Assembly (NCBI GenBank): GCA_004298505.1
Contig: SCRO01000051.1
Span: 1 to 56,545 of the forward strand
Direction: 5' to 3'
Length of the DNA stretch: 56,545 nucleotides
DNA from: Rhodanobacter sp.
Lineage (GTDB): Bacteria > Pseudomonadota > Gammaproteobacteria > Xanthomonadales > Rhodanobacteraceae
Each line of letters begins with the position of its first letter. Position 1 is the first letter of the stretch. The position numbers were made by a program, and so were the translations under genes. Positions 4,920 through 10,865 of this stretch are shown here, piece after piece. The notes under the pieces are model-generated. The model did not search any database, was not told the DNA's origin, and was given only the letters and a program-made list of their open reading frames with translations.

Positions 4920-5037
4920 CCCCCGATTGTAAGCCGGTGCGGCAACCCGGATCGCCGGGACGCGACAACCTGCCGCGGGTTGACGCCTCCCCGACCCCCA
5001 CTGCGTCGGCGCCCGGAAAAAGTTGCAAATAAATCTG

Positions 5038-5067
5038 TTGACTGCACTGCAACAATTCCCGTATGGT
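5038..5067 (+). promoter_or_regulatory. Promoter of the threonine operon leader
   Basis: TTGACT at 5038-5043 and TATGGT at 5062-5067 are separated by 18 nt and resemble sigma-70 -35 and -10 boxes. The expected start point, about 7 nt after the -10, coincides with ATG 5075, the first in-frame start of the leader peptide. The same geometry is seen upstream of leuA. Confidence 0.55.
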
Positions 5068-5074
5068 TGCGGGC

Positions 5075-5221
5075 ATGTCGCCGCTTTCCACGCCAGCCCG
5101 CATGTACTTCGCACCGGTCCGCACCGGTCGCATGCGCTTATGCGCGGGCGTCATCATCATTACCACGATTACCACCGGGACCGGTACCACGGGTTCCGGG
5201 CGGGGTGTCGTGCGTAGGTAA
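5075..5221 (+). CDS. thrL: Thr/Ile-rich leader peptide of the threonine operon
   Basis: The frame from ATG 5075 to TAA 5221 encodes 48 residues ending GVIIITTITTGTGTTGSG then RGVVRR; four Ile and seven Thr codons fall within a short run just before the stop, as in E. coli ThrL. In-frame ATG codons at 5102 and 5132 give shorter versions of 39 and 29 aa. I prefer 5075 because the predicted transcription start lies on it and none of the starts has a good Shine-Dalgarno. Known thr attenuators sense charged tRNA-Thr and tRNA-Ile by ribosome stalling in this run. It is followed 15 nt after the stop by a GC-rich hairpin and then by hom. Confidence 0.8.
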   Translation: MSPLSTPARMYFAPVRTGRMRLCAGVIIITTITTGTGTTGSGRGVVRR

Positions 5222-5236
5222 GTTTCTACACGCAAC

Positions 5237-5260
5237 GGCCCGCCCTCGACGAGGCGGGCC
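5237..5260 (+). terminator. Attenuator hairpin before hom
   Basis: GGCCCGCC (5237-5244) and GGCGGGCC (5253-5260) form a perfect 8-bp stem with an 8-nt loop directly downstream of the Thr/Ile leader stop. There is no U tract after it, so it is weaker than a canonical terminator. It is best read as the terminator half of the thr attenuator, or as a structure occluding downstream translation. Confidence 0.5.
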
Positions 5261-5310
5261 GGCCCACACCGACACGCCAGCGAGAACGGGCCTCCATCGG
5301 AGAGGCCGTC

Positions 5311-6462
5311 GTGATCACCTGTGTACCCAAGCAAATCCAGCGTTCCCCGTTGCCGCTGCGGTCGATGCATGCCATCGCCAGCACGCGGCGACGCGTGCTT
5401 GCGGTCGGCTTGATCGGACCCGGCCGGGTCGGCAGCACCCTGCTCGATCAGTTGCGCACTGCGCAACCGCGACTGGCACGCGACAGCGGACTGGAACTGA
5501 AATTGTGTGGGGTGGTGGCCAGCAAGCGCATGTGGCTGGATTGCGACGATGCCGAGCTCAACGGTCGCCATGACGGTGCCCAGGTCTGGCGACCAAACGA
5601 TCTCGACGCCTTCGCCGAGCACGTGCGCGGCAGCGATGGCCGGCACGCCCTGCTGATCGACTGCAGCGCGAATGACGACGTGGCGTCGCACTATGCGCAT
5701 TGGCTGGCCGCGGGCATCCACGTGGTGACGCCGAACAAGCTGGCCGGCAGCGGTCCGCTGTCGCGCTGGCAGGAAATCCGCGCCGCCTGTGTCGGCGGCG
5801 CGCGCTTTCGCTACGAGGCCACCGTCTGCGCCGGCCTGCCGGTGGTGCAGACCCTGCGCGACCTGCTCGATACCGGCGACGAACTGCAGGCAGTAGAAGG
5901 CATGTTCTCCGGCACCCTGGCCTGGCTGTGCAATCGCCACGACGGCCAGCATCCGTTCTCGACGCTGGTGCGCGAGGCGCACGCGCTGGGCTATACCGAG
6001 CCCGATCCGCGTGACGACCTGTCCGGCCTCGACGTCGCCCGCAAACTGGTGATCCTGGCGCGCGAGGCGGGCTGGCCGCTGTCGCTGGAAGATGTCGACC
6101 TGCAGGGCCTGGTACCCGAAGCGCTCGCCACGCTGCCACGCGAGCAGTTCATGGAGCGGCTGCACGAACTGGACGCACCGATGGCAACCCGGCTCGCCGA
6201 AGCGCGTGCCACAGGTGGCGTGCTGCGCCACGTTGCCCACCTCGACCGCCACGGCCACGCCAGCGTGCGGCTTGCGGTGCTGCCGGCCACGCACGCGTTC
6301 GCCCATTCGCGGCTGACCGACAACGTGGTGCAGTTCAGCACGCGCCGCTACTGCGATAATCCCCTGCTGGTGCAGGGCCCGGGTGCCGGGCCGGAAGTTA
6401 CCGCGGCCGGCGTGTTCGCCGACCTGCTGCGCATCGCCGAATCGCTGGCGGTGAAAGCATGA
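5311..6462 (+). CDS. hom: Homoserine dehydrogenase (monofunctional, no ACT domain)
   Basis: This enzyme reduces aspartate semialdehyde to homoserine with NAD(P)H. The Rossmann motif GPGRVG is at residues 36-41, the conserved TPNK at 140-143, and the family signature [19 protein letters not shown] at 227-245. At 383 aa it matches the C-terminal half of ThrA/MetL and lacks both the aspartokinase part and a C-terminal ACT domain, so feedback control, if any, is not of the ACT type. GTG 5311 is chosen because GGAGAGG (5299-5305) sits 5 nt before it; ATG 5365 is the alternative. The stop overlaps the thrB start (ATGA). Expression should respond to the Thr/Ile leader. Confidence 0.9.
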
Positions 6463-7454
6463 TCGTCTCGTTGCCGGAACCACCCATGGCCTCAGCTCGC
6501 TCCATGAACGCCCGCGTCGCCCGCGCCTTTGCACCGGCCAGCGTCGGCAATGTCGGCGTCGGCTTCGACCTGCTCGGTCATAGCCTGACTGGCAGCGGCG
6601 ACCATGCAGAGGTACGCCGTATCGACGAACCGGTGGTACGTATCGCAGCGATCCATGGCTGTGTCGACGGCCTGCCGCTCGATCCGCTGCGCAACACCGC
6701 CGGCACTGCGCTGCTCGCGCTGCAGCATGCGCTCGGCCTGCCCTACGGCTTCGAGCTGGTCCTGCACAAAGGCATCGCGCTGGGCTCGGGCATGGGCGGT
6801 TCGGCCGCCTCCTGCGTGGCCGCACTGGTCGCCGCCAACGCCATGCTGGAACAACCGCTGGCGCGCGAGGCGCTGTATCCGTTCGCGCTCGACGGCGAGG
6901 CGGTCGCCAGCGGCAGTAGCCACGGCGACAATCTCGGCGCGATGCTGCTCGGCGGCCTGGTGCTGGCCACCCACGATCGGCTGCTGCGCGTGCCGGTACC
7001 TGCAGCATGGCATTGCGCGCTGGTCCATCCGCACGTGGTGCTGGAAACGCGCAAGGCGCGCGCCGCACTGGCCGGCCACTACGAACTGGGCGAGTTCGTC
7101 GCGCAGAGCAGCCACCTGGCGCTGGTGCTCGCCGGCTGCTATCAGGGCGATGCCTCACTCGTGCGCGAAGGCCTCGAGGACGTACTGGTCGAGCCGCGCC
7201 GCGCGCCGCTGATCCCGCATTTCGCGCAGGTGAAGCAGGCCGCACTGGATCACCGGGCCATGGGTGCCAGCATCTCCGGCGCCGGCCCCAGCGTGTTCGG
7301 CTGGTATGAAAACCGCACCGATGCAGAGGCTGCCGGCGCGGCCATGCGCGCGGCATTTGCCACAGCGGGACTGGACAGCGACGTCTGGGTATCGCCGATC
7401 AACGGCCCCGCCGCCGCACTGGTCGATTCGCTCAACACGAAGCCAACACCATGA
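6459..7454 (+). CDS. thrB: Homoserine kinase
   Basis: A GHMP-family kinase of 331 aa that phosphorylates homoserine with ATP for threonine synthesis. The N-terminal block [20 protein letters not shown] (21-40) and the ATP loop [14 protein letters not shown] (105-118) are the family signatures; a C-terminal [10 protein letters not shown] segment completes the fold. The ATG at 6459 overlaps the hom stop; ATG 6486 or 6504 would remove a poorly conserved N-terminal tail and may be the true start. Second gene of the thr operon, followed by a spacer filled by a large palindrome. Confidence 0.92.
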
Positions 7455-7459
7455 AGCAC

Positions 7460-7527
7460 GTAGGGCGGGCACTGCCCGCCGGTTTTCTTCGGGTCGGGGC
7501 AAGCGCGGCGGGCAGTGCCCACCCTAC
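7460..7527 (+). repeat. Large palindrome in the thrB-thrC spacer (REP-like)
   Basis: Two 21-nt arms, 7460-7480 and 7507-7527, are inverted copies matching at 20 of 21 positions around a 26-nt loop. They contain the core GGCGGGCACTGCCCGCC or its complement. The element fills most of the 94-nt gap between thrB and thrC and would form a very stable hairpin in the operon mRNA. The same core recurs at 20497-20513 and 23171-23232. Confidence 0.75.
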
Positions 7528-7548
7528 AATTTTACGTGGAGTCGTGGC

Positions 7549-8889
7549 ATGAACCTGACGCCTCTTCGCTACATCAGCACGCGCGGGCACAGCCCGGCGG
7601 TACCGATAAGCCAGGCGATCGCTGCCGGGCTGGCGCCGGATGGCGGCCTGTATGTGCCCGTGGCCCTGCCATCGATCGACCCCGATGCCTTCGATCCGCA
7701 CGGCTTGCTGGCCGACACCGCCGCCACCTTGCTGAAGCCGTTCTTCGCCGGCGACCCATTGGCCGACGAATTGCCGGCGATCTGCGTCGAGGCCTTCACC
7801 TTCGACGCCCCGCTGCGCCCACTGCCGGCGCATCCAGACACCTTGATGCTGGAGCTGTTCCACGGCCCCACCTCGGCCTTCAAGGATTTCGGCGCCCGCT
7901 TTCTCGCTGCCTGTCTGCGCCGCCTGCCGCGTGCCGACACTCGTCCACTGACCATCCTGGTCGCCACCTCCGGCGACACCGGCGCTGCGGTGGCGGCCGC
8001 GTTCCATCGCCAGCCCGGTGTGAAAGTGGTGATCCTGTATCCGGACGGCCTGGTCTCGCCGCGCCAGGCGCACCAGCTCGGCTGCTTCGGCGACAACGTC
8101 ACCGCGCTGCGCGTCGCCGGTCGCTTCGATGACTGCCAGCGCATGGTGAAAGCCGCGCTCAGCGACGCGTCGCTGCAGGCCCAGGTACCGCTGTCCTCGG
8201 CCAACAGCATCAGCCTCGGCCGCCTGCTGCCGCAGATGAGCTACTACGCCCACGCGGCGCTGGGTTGGTGGCGCGAACACGGCACGCCACTCAACTTCAT
8301 CGTGCCCACCGGCAACCTCGGCAACGCCATGGCCTGCCTGTGGGTGCGCGCGACAGGCCTGCCCATCGGCGAAGTGCGCCTGGCCTGCAATGCCAACGCC
8401 ACCCTGCCGGATTACTTTGCCGGTGGCGACTACACGCCGCGCGAAGCCGTCGCCACGATTGCCAACGCGATGGACGTGGGCGCCCCCAGCAACTTCGAAC
8501 GCCTGCGCTGGACTTTTCCCAACGAGACGCAGCTACGCGAGTTGCTGCACGCCCACAGCGTAGGCGACGACACCATTCGCCAAACCCTCACGACGCACGC
8601 TCGCGAGCACCACGAAGTGTTCTGTCCGCATACCGCCACCGCGATGCACGAGCTCGATCGGCTGCATCACAGCGGCGATTCGCGGACCTGGGTCGTAGTG
8701 GCCACCGCGCACCCGGCCAAGTTCGAAACCGTACTGGAAGCCCTGCTCGGCCACGCTATCGCCATACCGCCGGCATTGGGGGCCTTGCTCGAACGACCGA
8801 CGAAGACGACCGCCATGGCGGCCGATGATGGCGTGTTCAAGCATTGGCTGCGCGGACACGCCGAGGCAGGGCCGATCAGCACAGCGTGA
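7549..8889 (+). CDS. thrC: Threonine synthase
   Basis: A PLP enzyme of 446 aa that converts O-phosphohomoserine to threonine. The N-terminus (YISTRGHSPAVPISQAIAAG) is typical of class I bacterial threonine synthases, and the PLP lysine is K112 in HGPTSAFKDFGARF. The segment VATSGDTGAAVAAAF forms the phosphate-binding region. Start ATG 7549 has GGAG at 7538-7541. It is the last gene of the hom-thrB-thrC operon. The product feeds IlvA, encoded at the end of the next operon. Confidence 0.95.
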   Translation: MNLTPLRYISTRGHSPAVPISQAIAAGLAPDGGLYVPVALPSIDPDAFDPHGLLADTAATLLKPFFAGDPLADELPAICVEAFTFDAPLRPLPAHPDTLMLELFHGPTSAFKDFGARFLAACLRRLPRADTRPLTILVATSGDTGAAVAAAFHRQPGVKVVILYPDGLVSPRQAHQLGCFGDNVTALRVAGRFDDCQRMVKAALSDASLQAQVPLSSANSISLGRLLPQMSYYAHAALGWWREHGTPLNFIVPTGNLGNAMACLWVRATGLPIGEVRLACNANATLPDYFAGGDYTPREAVATIANAMDVGAPSNFERLRWTFPNETQLRELLHAHSVGDDTIRQTLTTHAREHHEVFCPHTATAMHELDRLHHSGDSRTWVVVATAHPAKFETVLEALLGHAIAIPPALGALLERPTKTTAMAADDGVFKHWLRGHAEAGPISTA

Positions 8890-8922
8890 TCGACAGCTGC
8901 CAATAGTTTCATTTGAATTCAT

Positions 8923-8943
8923 TTGGACGGATAGCCGTCCGAA
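8923..8943. promoter_or_regulatory. Inverted repeat between thrC and the ilv/leu promoter
   Basis: TTGGACGG (8923-8930) and CCGTCCGA (8935-8942) form a 7-8 bp inverted repeat with loop ATAG, 44 nt upstream of the TTGACA box of the leuA operon. There is no U tract, so it is not a standard terminator. It may be an operator for a dimeric regulator or a weak thr-operon terminator. A second, wider inverted repeat (AGCTGCCA 8894-8901 with TGGCAGCT 8952-8959) encloses it. Confidence 0.35.
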
Positions 8944-8986
8944 CACTACCCTGGCAGCTTGGAAAGTTTCTTCATGAAGATTTTTC

Positions 8987-9016
8987 TTGACAGACCCCCT
9001 CGTCATCGCATAGGGT
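8987..9016 (+). promoter_or_regulatory. Promoter of the leu-ilv operon leader
   Basis: TTGACA (8987-8992) is a perfect -35 box; TAGGGT (9011-9016) lies 18 nt downstream as the -10. The expected start of transcription, 6-7 nt after the -10, is at the A of ATG 9023, which opens the leader peptide. This implies a leaderless mRNA. Confidence 0.65.
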
Positions 9017-9022
9017 CAACCT

Positions 9023-9160
9023 ATGCCGCAACGCAACAGCCATTGCCGTACCGCCGAAATCAACCGTCTCGCGACGGTCGACGGCGTGCTGCAGGTCGGC
9101 GGTACGCTCATTATCATCCTTGTACTCGTACTCCTCATTACCAACGGAGGTGCGGGCTGA
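9023..9160 (+). CDS. ilvL: Leu/Ile/Val-rich leader peptide of the branched-chain operon
   Basis: The 45-aa frame starts at ATG 9023 and ends at TGA 9160. Residues 28-40 read TLIIILVLVLLIT: five Leu, four Ile and two Val codons in a row, the hallmark of ilv/leu attenuation control. There is no Shine-Dalgarno because the predicted transcription start falls on the ATG. It is followed 43 nt later by a strong intrinsic terminator, then leuA. The long non-regulatory N-terminal part (MPQRNSHCRTAEINRLATVD) matches the length of the thr leader but not its sequence. Confidence 0.88.
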   Translation: MPQRNSHCRTAEINRLATVDGVLQVGGTLIIILVLVLLITNGGAG

Positions 9161-9203: not shown

Positions 9204-9239
9204 AAAAGCCCCGCACCGGCAACGGCGCGGGGCTTTTTT
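9204..9239 (+). terminator. Attenuator terminator of the leu-ilv operon
   Basis: AAAAGCCCCGC (9204-9214) pairs perfectly with GCGGGGCTTTT (9227-9237), followed by a T run to 9239. It sits between the branched-chain leader peptide and leuA and is a textbook attenuator: transcription ends here unless the ribosome stalls in the Leu/Ile/Val run. Confidence 0.92.
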
Positions 9240-9269: not shown

Positions 9270-10865
9270 ATGAACCCCGAGACAGACGTAGCAACCCCAA
9301 CCACCGGTCGCGCCAGCACTGCCGCCGAGCGTGTGCGGATCTTCGACACGACGCTACGCGATGGCGAACAGGCCCCCGGCTTTTCGATGGACCGGCACGC
9401 CAAGCTGCGCATGGCGCAGCAGCTCGAGGCGCTCGGCGTGGATGTGCTCGAGGCTGGCTTTCCGCAGGCATCGCCGGACGATTTTGCTGCAGTTGCGGAA
9501 ATCGCCCGCACCTTGAAGAACACCACGGTGTGTGGCCTCGCCCGCTGCCAGAACGACGACATCGACGCCGCCGGGCGCGCACTGGAAGAGGCGGCGCACT
9601 CACGCATCCACGTGTTCCTGTCGACCAGCCCGCTGCATCGCGAACACAAGCTGGGCATGAGCAAGGCACAGGTGCTGGACACTGCCGTGGCGGGGGTGGA
9701 GCGGGCGCGCGGGCGGTGCCACGAAGTGGAGTTTTCGGCCGAGGATGCACTGCGCACCGAGCCCGAGTTCCTGGTCGAGGTGTTCAGTGCCGCGCTGGAG
9801 GCCGGCGCCACCACGCTGAACGCGCCGGACACCGTCGGTTACACCACGCCTGCAGAAATCGTCGCGCTGTTCGAATACCTGCGCCGCCATGTGCGTGGTG
9901 CCGAGCGGGCGATCTTTTCCAGCCATTGCCACGACGACCTGGGCATGGCGGTCGCCAACTCCCTGGCGGCGGTCAGCGCTGGCGCACGCCAGGTGGAGTG
10001 CACCATCAATGGCATCGGCGAGCGCGCGGGCAATGCGGCGCTGGAAGAGGTGGTGATGGCGCTGAAGGTGCGCGCCGCACGCTTCGGCGTCGACACCCGC
10101 CTAGACACGCGCAAGCTGTATCCCACCTCGCGTCTGCTGACTCAGCTGACCGGCCAGGCGGTACCGCGCAACAAGGCGATCGTGGGTGAGAACGCGTTTG
10201 CGCACGAAGCCGGTATCCATCAGCACGGCATGCTCAAGCATCCCGGTACCTACGAGATCATGCGCCCGCAGGATGTGGGCATCGCCGAGACCAGGTTGGT
10301 GCTGGGCAAGCACTCCGGTCGCGCCGCGCTGGGCCAGCGGCTGCAGACGCTGGGGCACACGCCGGATGCCGCGGCGATGGACACCATCTTTGCCCGCTTC
10401 AAGAAGCTGGCCGACAAGAAGTGCGAGATCCACGACGAAGATCTCGAGGCGATTGCGCTGGGTCAGGATCCGGACGAAGCCGGCCCGTGGCACTTGCTGC
10501 AGCTCAGCAGCGCGACCCACCTTGGCGGCAGTGCGTCAGCGTCGGTGAAGCTGGCCCACGACGACGGCCGCGAGGTCAGCGAGGCGGCGATCGGCGACGG
10601 CCCGGTTGACGCGGTGCTGCGCGCGATCGAGCGCGCTACCGGCAGCGAGCTGGAGCTCACCGACTTCGTGGTGCGCGCAGTCAGCGAAGGCGGCGATGCG
10701 CAAGGCCACGCCCGGCTCACCGCACGCCACCACCAGCGCGACTGGCGCGGCCATGGCGTCAGCACCGACATCGTGGAGGCCACCGCCCAGGCGGCGCTGG
10801 CCATCGTCAACCGAATTGCGCGACAGACTCCGGCGCCCGCGCCGATCGTCGTCGCCCACCTGTAA
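9270..10865 (+). CDS. leuA: 2-isopropylmalate synthase
   Basis: A 531-aa enzyme condensing acetyl-CoA with 2-oxoisovalerate, the first leucine-specific step. The catalytic and metal motif [14 protein letters not shown] is at residues 24-37, and the HxH metal ligands are H219 and H221 in SSHCHDDLG. The C-terminal part (from about 395) is the LeuA dimerisation/allosteric domain, so leucine feedback is expected. GGAG at 9260-9263 supports ATG 9270. First structural gene after the attenuator, followed by ilvE after a 16-nt gap. Confidence 0.96.

Follow-up and report, generated by a model that had tools for sequence, protein, structure and literature searches.

Do the transcripts that control threonine and leucine biosynthesis in Rhodanobacter, a soil bacterium related to Xanthomonas, begin at the start codons of their own leader peptides? 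The question is raised by a contig of Rhodanobacter sp. (NCBI GenBank assembly GCA_004298505.1, contig SCRO01000051.1, positions 1 to 56,545 of the forward strand; this whole stretch of 56,545 nucleotides is called the window below). Here, two short open reading frames (ORFs), each with a run of cognate codons, lie upstream of the matching biosynthetic genes hom and leuA. A preliminary description of the window proposed that both encode attenuator leader peptides translated from leaderless transcripts. Comparison with related sequences leads us to conclude that both sites are very probably ribosome-mediated attenuators, with a transcript that starts at, or within about 2 bases of, the A of the leader AUG.

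Promoters that end shortly before the leader start codons

The two leaders, their promoters and the genes that follow them are laid out as follows (aa, amino acids).

5038..5043, + strand: hom leader promoter, -35 element TTGACT (sequence, promoter scan)
5062..5067, + strand: hom leader promoter, -10 element TATGGT
5075, + strand: predicted transcription start, the A of the hom leader ATG, at position 8 after the -10 box
5075..5221, + strand: ORF of the Thr/Ile leader peptide, 48 aa, MSPLSTPARM...IIITTITTGTGTT...
5311..6462, + strand: hom, homoserine dehydrogenase, GTG start (ORF; Pfam Homoserine_dh, 160.4 bits)
8987..8992, + strand: leuA leader promoter, -35 element TTGACA
9011..9016, + strand: leuA leader promoter, -10 element TAGGGT
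9023..9160, + strand: ORF of the Leu/Ile/Val leader peptide, 45 aa, with a predicted transcription start at 9023 (ORF, relatives)
9270..10865, + strand: leuA, 2-isopropylmalate synthase (ORF; Pfam HMGL-like, 314.8 bits, and LeuA_dimer, 105.9 bits)

Both promoters have an 18-nt spacer (TTGACT-TATGGT and TTGACA-TAGGGT), and the -10 box is followed by the leader ATG after 7 nt at hom and 6 nt at leuA. All coordinates that the preliminary description gave for the promoters and start codons proved exact, as did the Thr/Ile and Leu/Ile/Val runs that it noted. The ORF listing opens the hom leader frame earlier, at an in-frame ATG at 5063 that lies inside the -10 box. A sigma-70-type promoter that ends 6-7 nt before an ATG leaves no room for a Shine–Dalgarno (SD) sequence if transcription starts at the usual distance.

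Such an arrangement can arise by accident. The strict pattern TTGACN{17,20}TANNNTN{5,8}ATG has four matches in the 3.78-Mb genome and three in a reversed control, a raw count that is not above chance. Beyond chance expectation are the placement of two of the four genomic matches, at leader ORFs only 4 kb from each other, and the conservation of both. When the requirement is relaxed to TTGAC followed by an ATG at a distance of 29-32 nt, the window holds two matches on the plus strand, which are the two leaders, and four on the minus strand; a promoter scan of the window detected the hom promoter (1 found versus 0.1 in shuffles).

The remaining two matches to the strict pattern are also at gene starts. 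At a gene for a MarR-family regulator (C40:3097-3134; Pfam MarR), TTGACA and TAAAAT are followed after 7 nt by ATG, which is a leaderless geometry, and closely similar matches to this promoter recur in the genus, in at least four further genomes. At a brnT toxin gene (C49:800-837, minus strand; Pfam BrnT_toxin), TACAAT lies 7 nt before the ATG.

Conservation in close relatives

We gathered 110 hom loci, 80 from named records and 30 from the genome of the window and other relatives, and added leuA loci. A plus-strand match was obtained for 98 of the hom loci, and the other 12 were examined separately. Among the 98, 67 carry a leader (56 distinct by peptide), one (L077) has none and the other 30 are distant loci. 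Close relatives share at least 72% identity in hom and belong mostly to Rhodanobacter, Dyella, Frateuria and Fulvimonas, with some metagenome-assembled genomes (MAGs) labelled otherwise; the closest named ones include Rhodanobacter sp. B05 (87%) and, at 88%, a MAG that carries the label Lysobacteraceae. For leuA, 32 leaders were found through leuA matches (the window included) and 40 distinct leaders through a leader-tail motif.

A direct search found exactly one TAnnnT at gaps of 3-13 nt before the ATG in each hom and each leuA leader. This gap is 7 nt in 46, 6 nt in 8 and 8 nt in 2 of the 56 distinct hom leaders, and 7 nt in 31 and 6 nt in 9 of the 40 distinct leuA leaders, which places the -10 box about 6-8 nt before the ATG in all 96 distinct leaders of close relatives. 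From the end of the -35 hexamer to the ATG the distance is 30-32 nt at hom (56/56) and 30-31 nt at leuA (40/40). The 12 further hom loci, six of which are new sequences, all conform, with gaps of 6-7 nt and -35 distances of 30-31 nt. The base before the leader ATG is C in 53/56 hom and 39/40 leuA leaders, forming a pyrimidine-purine initiator with the A. Both the -10-to-ATG distance, which the preliminary description proposed to compare across relatives, and the position of the leader ATG, on which it let its claim hang, are kept in every close-relative leader identified.

Sequences with a 7-nt gap (46/56 hom and 31/40 leuA) were aligned on the ATG for a conservation profile. Information content between -120 and -61 is 0.13-0.17 bits per position at hom and 0.14-0.27 at leuA; conservation is low upstream of about -60, rises near -56 at a TTnCAnA-like element and rises again at the -35 and -10 boxes. 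No conserved 5' untranslated region (UTR) is visible in these ATG-aligned upstream regions. The hom box behaves as a -10 element and not as an SD sequence, because TA...T is kept in relatives while the middle varies (TAAGGT, TATGGT, TAGTGT, TATCTT and TAACGT).

The TTnCAnA-like element is common to the hom and leuA promoters, at an equal distance upstream of the -35 hexamer (-53 to -45 in relatives); by position it is perhaps UP-element-like, or perhaps the site of a shared regulator. In the window it corresponds to this feature at hom.

5022..5030, + strand: GTTGCAAAT, conserved element that precedes the hom-leader -35, at about -53 to -45 relative to the ATG, close to where conservation begins

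At locus L077, a length change in the codon run breaks the frame of the Thr leader and leaves promoter and ATG intact, which may be a natural variant or a sequencing error. The first two codons are ATG-TCG in 46/56 hom and 35/40 leuA leaders; the leuA leader of the window has ATG-CCG.

More distant genera of the order

Outgroup loci for the threonine leader came from Xanthomonas, Stenotrophomonas, Arenimonas, Rudaea, Dokdonella and MAGs, and leader ORFs were identified in 25 of these 30 loci. All 25 have TTGAC 29-32 nt before an in-frame ATG, in leader sequences that are unrelated. For leu/ilv, a relaxed scan recovered 11 leaders in 16 stretches (a stricter scan gave one), and all 11, from five other families according to the labels of the genome search, have TTGAC 29-31 nt before an in-frame ATG. 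One plus-strand ORF from the relaxed scan (L206) was spurious and was dropped. The leaderless geometry of the preliminary description extends in this way to every leader identified in the distant genera, through the -35-to-ATG distance only.

Leader length fared differently. The two peptides, 48 and 45 aa, had been described as longer than their Escherichia coli counterparts, ThrL and the 32-aa IlvL. They do exceed E. coli thrL (21 aa) and leuL (28 aa; both from annotated coordinates), the latter being the proper comparison for the leuA leader, but length is not conserved across the order: outgroup thr leaders, counted from the TTGAC-matched ATG, span 22-44 aa. We therefore rejected length as a meaningful trait.

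Leader RNAs and a proposed mechanism

We hypothesize that the 5'-terminal AUG is bound by a ribosome shortly after it emerges from RNA polymerase, and that this ribosome then trails the polymerase. With ample amino acid the ribosome would reach the stop codon and cover the leader tail, leaving the downstream hairpin free to form (OFF). Under a shortage of Thr/Ile or Leu it would stall on the codon run, and the freed leader tail would capture the 5' arm of the hairpin, so that transcription continues (ON). At leuA the OFF step would use a standard intrinsic terminator, built from the following elements.

9107..9139, + strand: regulatory codon run, LIIILVLVLLI
9149..9156, + strand: GGTGCGGG, antiterminator segment in the leader tail, complementary to CCCGCACC in the 5' arm of the terminator
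9207..9239, + strand: intrinsic terminator AGCCCCGC...GCGGGGCTTTTTT of the leuA attenuator (sequence, relatives)

Because the 40 leuA leaders were found by their tail motif, the tail was counted on the 32 found through leuA; GGTGCGGG and CCCGCACC are both present in 32/32. A U-run follows the terminator hairpin in 39/40 relatives; a mechanical terminator scan did not list this terminator. Fold modelling, which took in 39/40 leuA leaders, gave the antiterminator a probability of 0.74 in nascent RNA ending at the terminator 5' arm. The Rfam model RF00512 (Leu_leader) scores 16.4 bits (E 8), below its gathering cut-off of 50.

The hom leader has comparable elements, and its pairings likewise follow the standard logic of attenuation.

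5153..5191, + strand: regulatory Ile/Thr codon run
5198..5214, + strand: antiterminator segment in the leader tail, able to bind the 5' arm of the attenuator hairpin (pairing in relatives, fold model)
5236..5262, + strand: attenuator hairpin CGGCCCGCCCTC-GAC-GAGGCGGGCCGG, without a U-tract (folding, relatives)
5288..5308, + strand: hairpin that holds the hom SD sequence GGAG (88.9% of cells paired; both-side changes in 4/6 pairs)

Across 56 sequences, two pairings of the hom tail are intact in 97.1% and 95.9% of cells, and neither shows double changes. In the attenuator hairpin, in the register used, the inner 4 pairs are kept in 99.1% of cells and the outer 8 pairs in 75.2%. The fold model pairs the hairpin arm with a probability of 0.74 when the ribosome is at the stop codon and 0.37 when it is stalled in the Thr run. 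The Rfam model RF00506 (Thr_leader) matches 5148-5264 with 33.2 bits (E 0.0016), below the gathering cut-off of 55. A small hairpin, CACCGGTCCGCACCGGT, lies within the hom leader ORF (window 5112-5128, codons 13-18) and is possibly a pause hairpin; some relatives look compensated by eye, and the consensus fold of the 5' half of the hom leader contains only a 3-bp stem.

No U-tract follows the hom hairpin in any of the 56 relatives (T runs reach at most 2 in the 9 nt that follow), and a terminator scan finds none at hom. With no U-tract after this hairpin and with the hom ribosome site enclosed in another one, the OFF step could be termination without a U-tract, Rho-dependent termination or a translational block. 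The last alternative, a translational attenuator in which leader stalling exposes the hom SD sequence, concerns the OFF step and leaves leaderlessness untouched; we regard it as possible but doubtful. The missing U-tract and the both-side changes in the SD hairpin speak for it, as does an extra helix between the 5' arm of the attenuator hairpin and a strand upstream of the SD sequence (99.2% of cells paired, double changes in 2/5 pairs). However, these double changes may be one or two events, and the modelled cost of opening the SD sequence hardly responds to the ribosome: 6.57 kcal/mol with the ribosome at the stop codon versus 6.37 kcal/mol with it stalled mid-run. Across relatives the stalled cost is lower by more than 1 in 17/56 and higher by more than 1 in 12/56, with no consistent effect.

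Where the transcripts start

If transcription from these promoters does not start exactly at the A, the nearest alternative is a 5' UTR of 1-5 nt, or a mixture of starts around the ATG, a near-leaderless arrangement that overlaps with the explanation we prefer and that we consider rather unlikely. The gap varies by 2 nt in close relatives, and the -35-to-ATG distance varies by 3 nt in outgroups; in Corynebacterium glutamicum, the +1 of ilvL is reported one nucleotide from the start codon in the relevant part of PMC11857589. Against these stands the C at -1 in 53/56 and 39/40 leaders. The A of the ATG is also a purine at the distance favoured for transcription starts.

Ordinary SD-led leaders would require that TAAGGT or TAGGGT supply an SD-like AGG near the ATG and that the true transcription start lie further upstream. 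TAAGG matches part of the SD consensus and stands at a usable spacing in many relatives. In the window, the pairing energy with the anti-SD sequence is -2.8 kcal/mol for the hom leader and -3.8 kcal/mol for the leu leader, compared with -5.8 to -9.1 kcal/mol for seven ordinary starts and -3.5 kcal/mol for an alternative thrB start. The claim that neither leader has an SD sequence held for hom, for which relatives average -3.48 kcal/mol versus -3.40 kcal/mol at random positions. For leuA the mean of -4.00 kcal/mol lies slightly beyond random, and 57% of leaders fall below -4 versus 34%. The leuA excess plausibly comes from the G-rich -10 box. We rejected TAAGGT as an SD sequence because TA...T and not the G's is conserved; upstream conservation is low beyond about -60, and outgroups mostly lack AGG at this position yet keep the TTGAC distance. 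SD-led initiation therefore appears very improbable.

It is exceedingly unlikely that the conserved ATG is unused, such that the block comprises a promoter with the first transcribed bases, and leader translation begins at a later start codon or does not take place: most hom leaders do have more in-frame ATGs before the codon run, and the ratio of nonsynonymous to synonymous change over codons 2-24 of the leuA leaders is 0.88, but there is no other in-frame ATG before the run in 15/56 hom leaders and none within the first 30 residues in 29/40 leuA leaders, and the ratio (pN/pS-like) of 0.35 over codons 2-9 of the hom leaders favours translation.

Several results weigh against a start at the leader AUG, or against the attenuators built on it. 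The leuA excess in anti-SD pairing is one. E. coli thrL, the transcript of which is leadered, also scores poorly (-2.4), so the absence of an SD sequence alone proves little. The leuA ratio does not demonstrate protein-level constraint, and the promoter scan does not list the leuA promoter, the weak -10 box of which (TAGGGT) was missed because it matches at only 3/6 positions; the call of this promoter therefore rests on conservation. Modelled at equilibrium, the complete leuA terminator wins with a probability of 0.91 in both ribosome states, and the leuA switch must therefore be kinetic. Promoter score played a part in the initial choice of the hom leader starts, and 15/56 leaders have extra in-frame ATGs upstream, often within the -10 box; the choice is independent of the promoter in so far as the chosen ATG is the most upstream one in frame in the other 41/56, and the leuA start codons were picked without regard to promoters. 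Locus L077 was dropped for its broken frame. Among the outgroups, no leader ORF was found in 5/30 thr loci and 5/16 leu/ilv stretches; 15 of the 25 thr leaders are from Xanthomonas and the set is therefore not independent; the matching ATG is often one of two or three in frame; and the -10 boxes are often non-canonical, several of them not TAnnnT, so that only the -35-to-ATG distance is conserved there. Published start sites for either leader, or for Xanthomonas, Stenotrophomonas or Rhodanobacter, were not found in the open literature searched.

Relation to known attenuators

The textbook picture of attenuation comes from E. coli, in which the RNA is leadered, so that the ribosome has time to load before the decision. 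The E. coli thrL and leuL systems resemble the present pair in their equivalent operons, their codon logic and the placement of a leader before thrA or leuA. In a simple scan, however, the distance from the end of the best promoter candidate to the leader ATG is 19 nt at thrL and 33 nt at leuL, compared with 6-8 nt here.

Cysteine-rich upstream ORFs (uORFs) of mycobacteria are leaderless. They share with our leaders the form of a short ORF rich in the cognate residue before related genes, in a genus with common leaderless transcripts, but they concern cysteine, and attenuation is called speculative in the part of the source that bears on them (PMC4633059).

Leaderless attenuator leaders are known from C. 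glutamicum, Corynebacterium diphtheriae, Streptomyces lividans and Sinorhizobium meliloti, as far as the relevant sections of the literature describe them; the window thus extends an established class of regulator to another lineage and does not define a class of its own. C. glutamicum ilvBNC with IlvL (Morbach et al. 2000 as cited in PMC11857589) is alike in its branched-chain codons, a start 1 nt from the leader start codon, no ribosome-binding site and an antiterminator/terminator pair. It differs in belonging to an actinobacterium with a 15-aa leader and, in what that article presents, no counterpart of the hom element. A leaderless attenuator leader is also described in the pertinent passages on ilvB of C. 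diphtheriae. For S. lividans, the relevant part of PMC8079986 describes LeuL, TrpL, IlvL, MetL and ThrL, several of them leaderless and some without a clear U-tract terminator, as at hom; but this is again an actinobacterium, its ThrL precedes thrS and not homoserine dehydrogenase, and its leaders are 12-29 aa long. S. meliloti trpL/rnTrpL is likewise a proteobacterial attenuator with an RNA 5' end at the leader ATG; it differs in being alphaproteobacterial, in responding to tryptophan, in its 14-aa peptide and in a peptide and RNA that act in trans, according to the sections of PMC7298713 concerned.

The binding of 70S ribosomes to a 5'-terminal AUG is established, on the account given in part of PMC9031893. 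The preliminary description went on to suggest that leaderless attenuation would change how the system behaves under stress; stress-specific behaviour does not follow. In S. meliloti, accumulation of the leader peptide peTrpL was equal from leaderless and SD-bearing constructs, as reported in the relevant part of PMC7298713.

No report of a leaderless attenuator leader in Gammaproteobacteria was found in the open literature, a limited negative, with most subscription papers outside the search and sources available in part. Proteobacterial attenuators are the subject of Vitreschak et al. 2004, as cited in PMC8079986. A differential RNA-sequencing study of Salmonella reports 33 leaderless genes and, in the portion available, names no attenuator leader among them. 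The present pair suggests a wider spread of leaderless attenuation, which the available parts of the literature report from Actinobacteria and one alphaproteobacterium. If this order does start its thr and leu/ilv leaders at the AUG, the timing between ribosome and polymerase must be solved differently there, and the conserved hom and leuA pair would be a natural system for testing whether leaderless initiation, by 70S loading, sets attenuator output.

A separate possibility is AUG gating, in which pairing with downstream leader sequence would hide the 5'-terminal AUG, so that ribosome loading would have to be coordinated with RNA polymerase or would fail. A timed design of this sort across the order, with an AUG that becomes less reachable after about 80 nt of leader, a requirement for early loading, a gate built by the 5' halves of the leaders and a hom OFF step without a U-tract terminator, seems to us distinctly unlikely on present modelling. 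Modelled AUG openness falls below that of codon-shuffled controls in 46/56 hom leaders at 99 nt and 35/40 leuA leaders at 84 nt, and a comparable shielding hairpin has been proposed for C. glutamicum ilvL, according to part of PMC11857589. However, the relatives from which these counts are drawn are not independent, the course of openness at hom is uneven (0.59 at 30 nt, 0.82 at 75 nt and 0.48 at 99 nt), low values at hom occur as early as 30 and 60 nt, and only 27/40 leuA leaders remain below controls at 99 nt.

Other features of the locus and genome

Searches of 13 genomes with about 1.5 kb of flank found no convincing His-, Phe- or Trp-rich leaders near hisG, pheS or trpE-type genes, and no ilv leader was found close to ilvB within the genus (about 1.5 kb of flank); one ilv leader is present in a more distant family (L159/L196).

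The gene order in the window is hom, a GHMP kinase gene (thrB), the threonine synthase gene (thrC), then leuA and further leu genes, as read from ORFs and Pfam. Between thrB and thrC, at about 7460-7527 of the window, lies an inverted repeat, GTAGGGCGGGCACTGCCC...GGGCAGTGCCCACCCTAC, that resembles REP (repetitive extragenic palindromic) elements. The genome encodes two more homoserine-dehydrogenase-like genes, at C21:23541-24629 (62% identity) and C7:27971-28996 (48%), and the first of these sits in a 1005-aa open frame that resembles the bifunctional ThrA.

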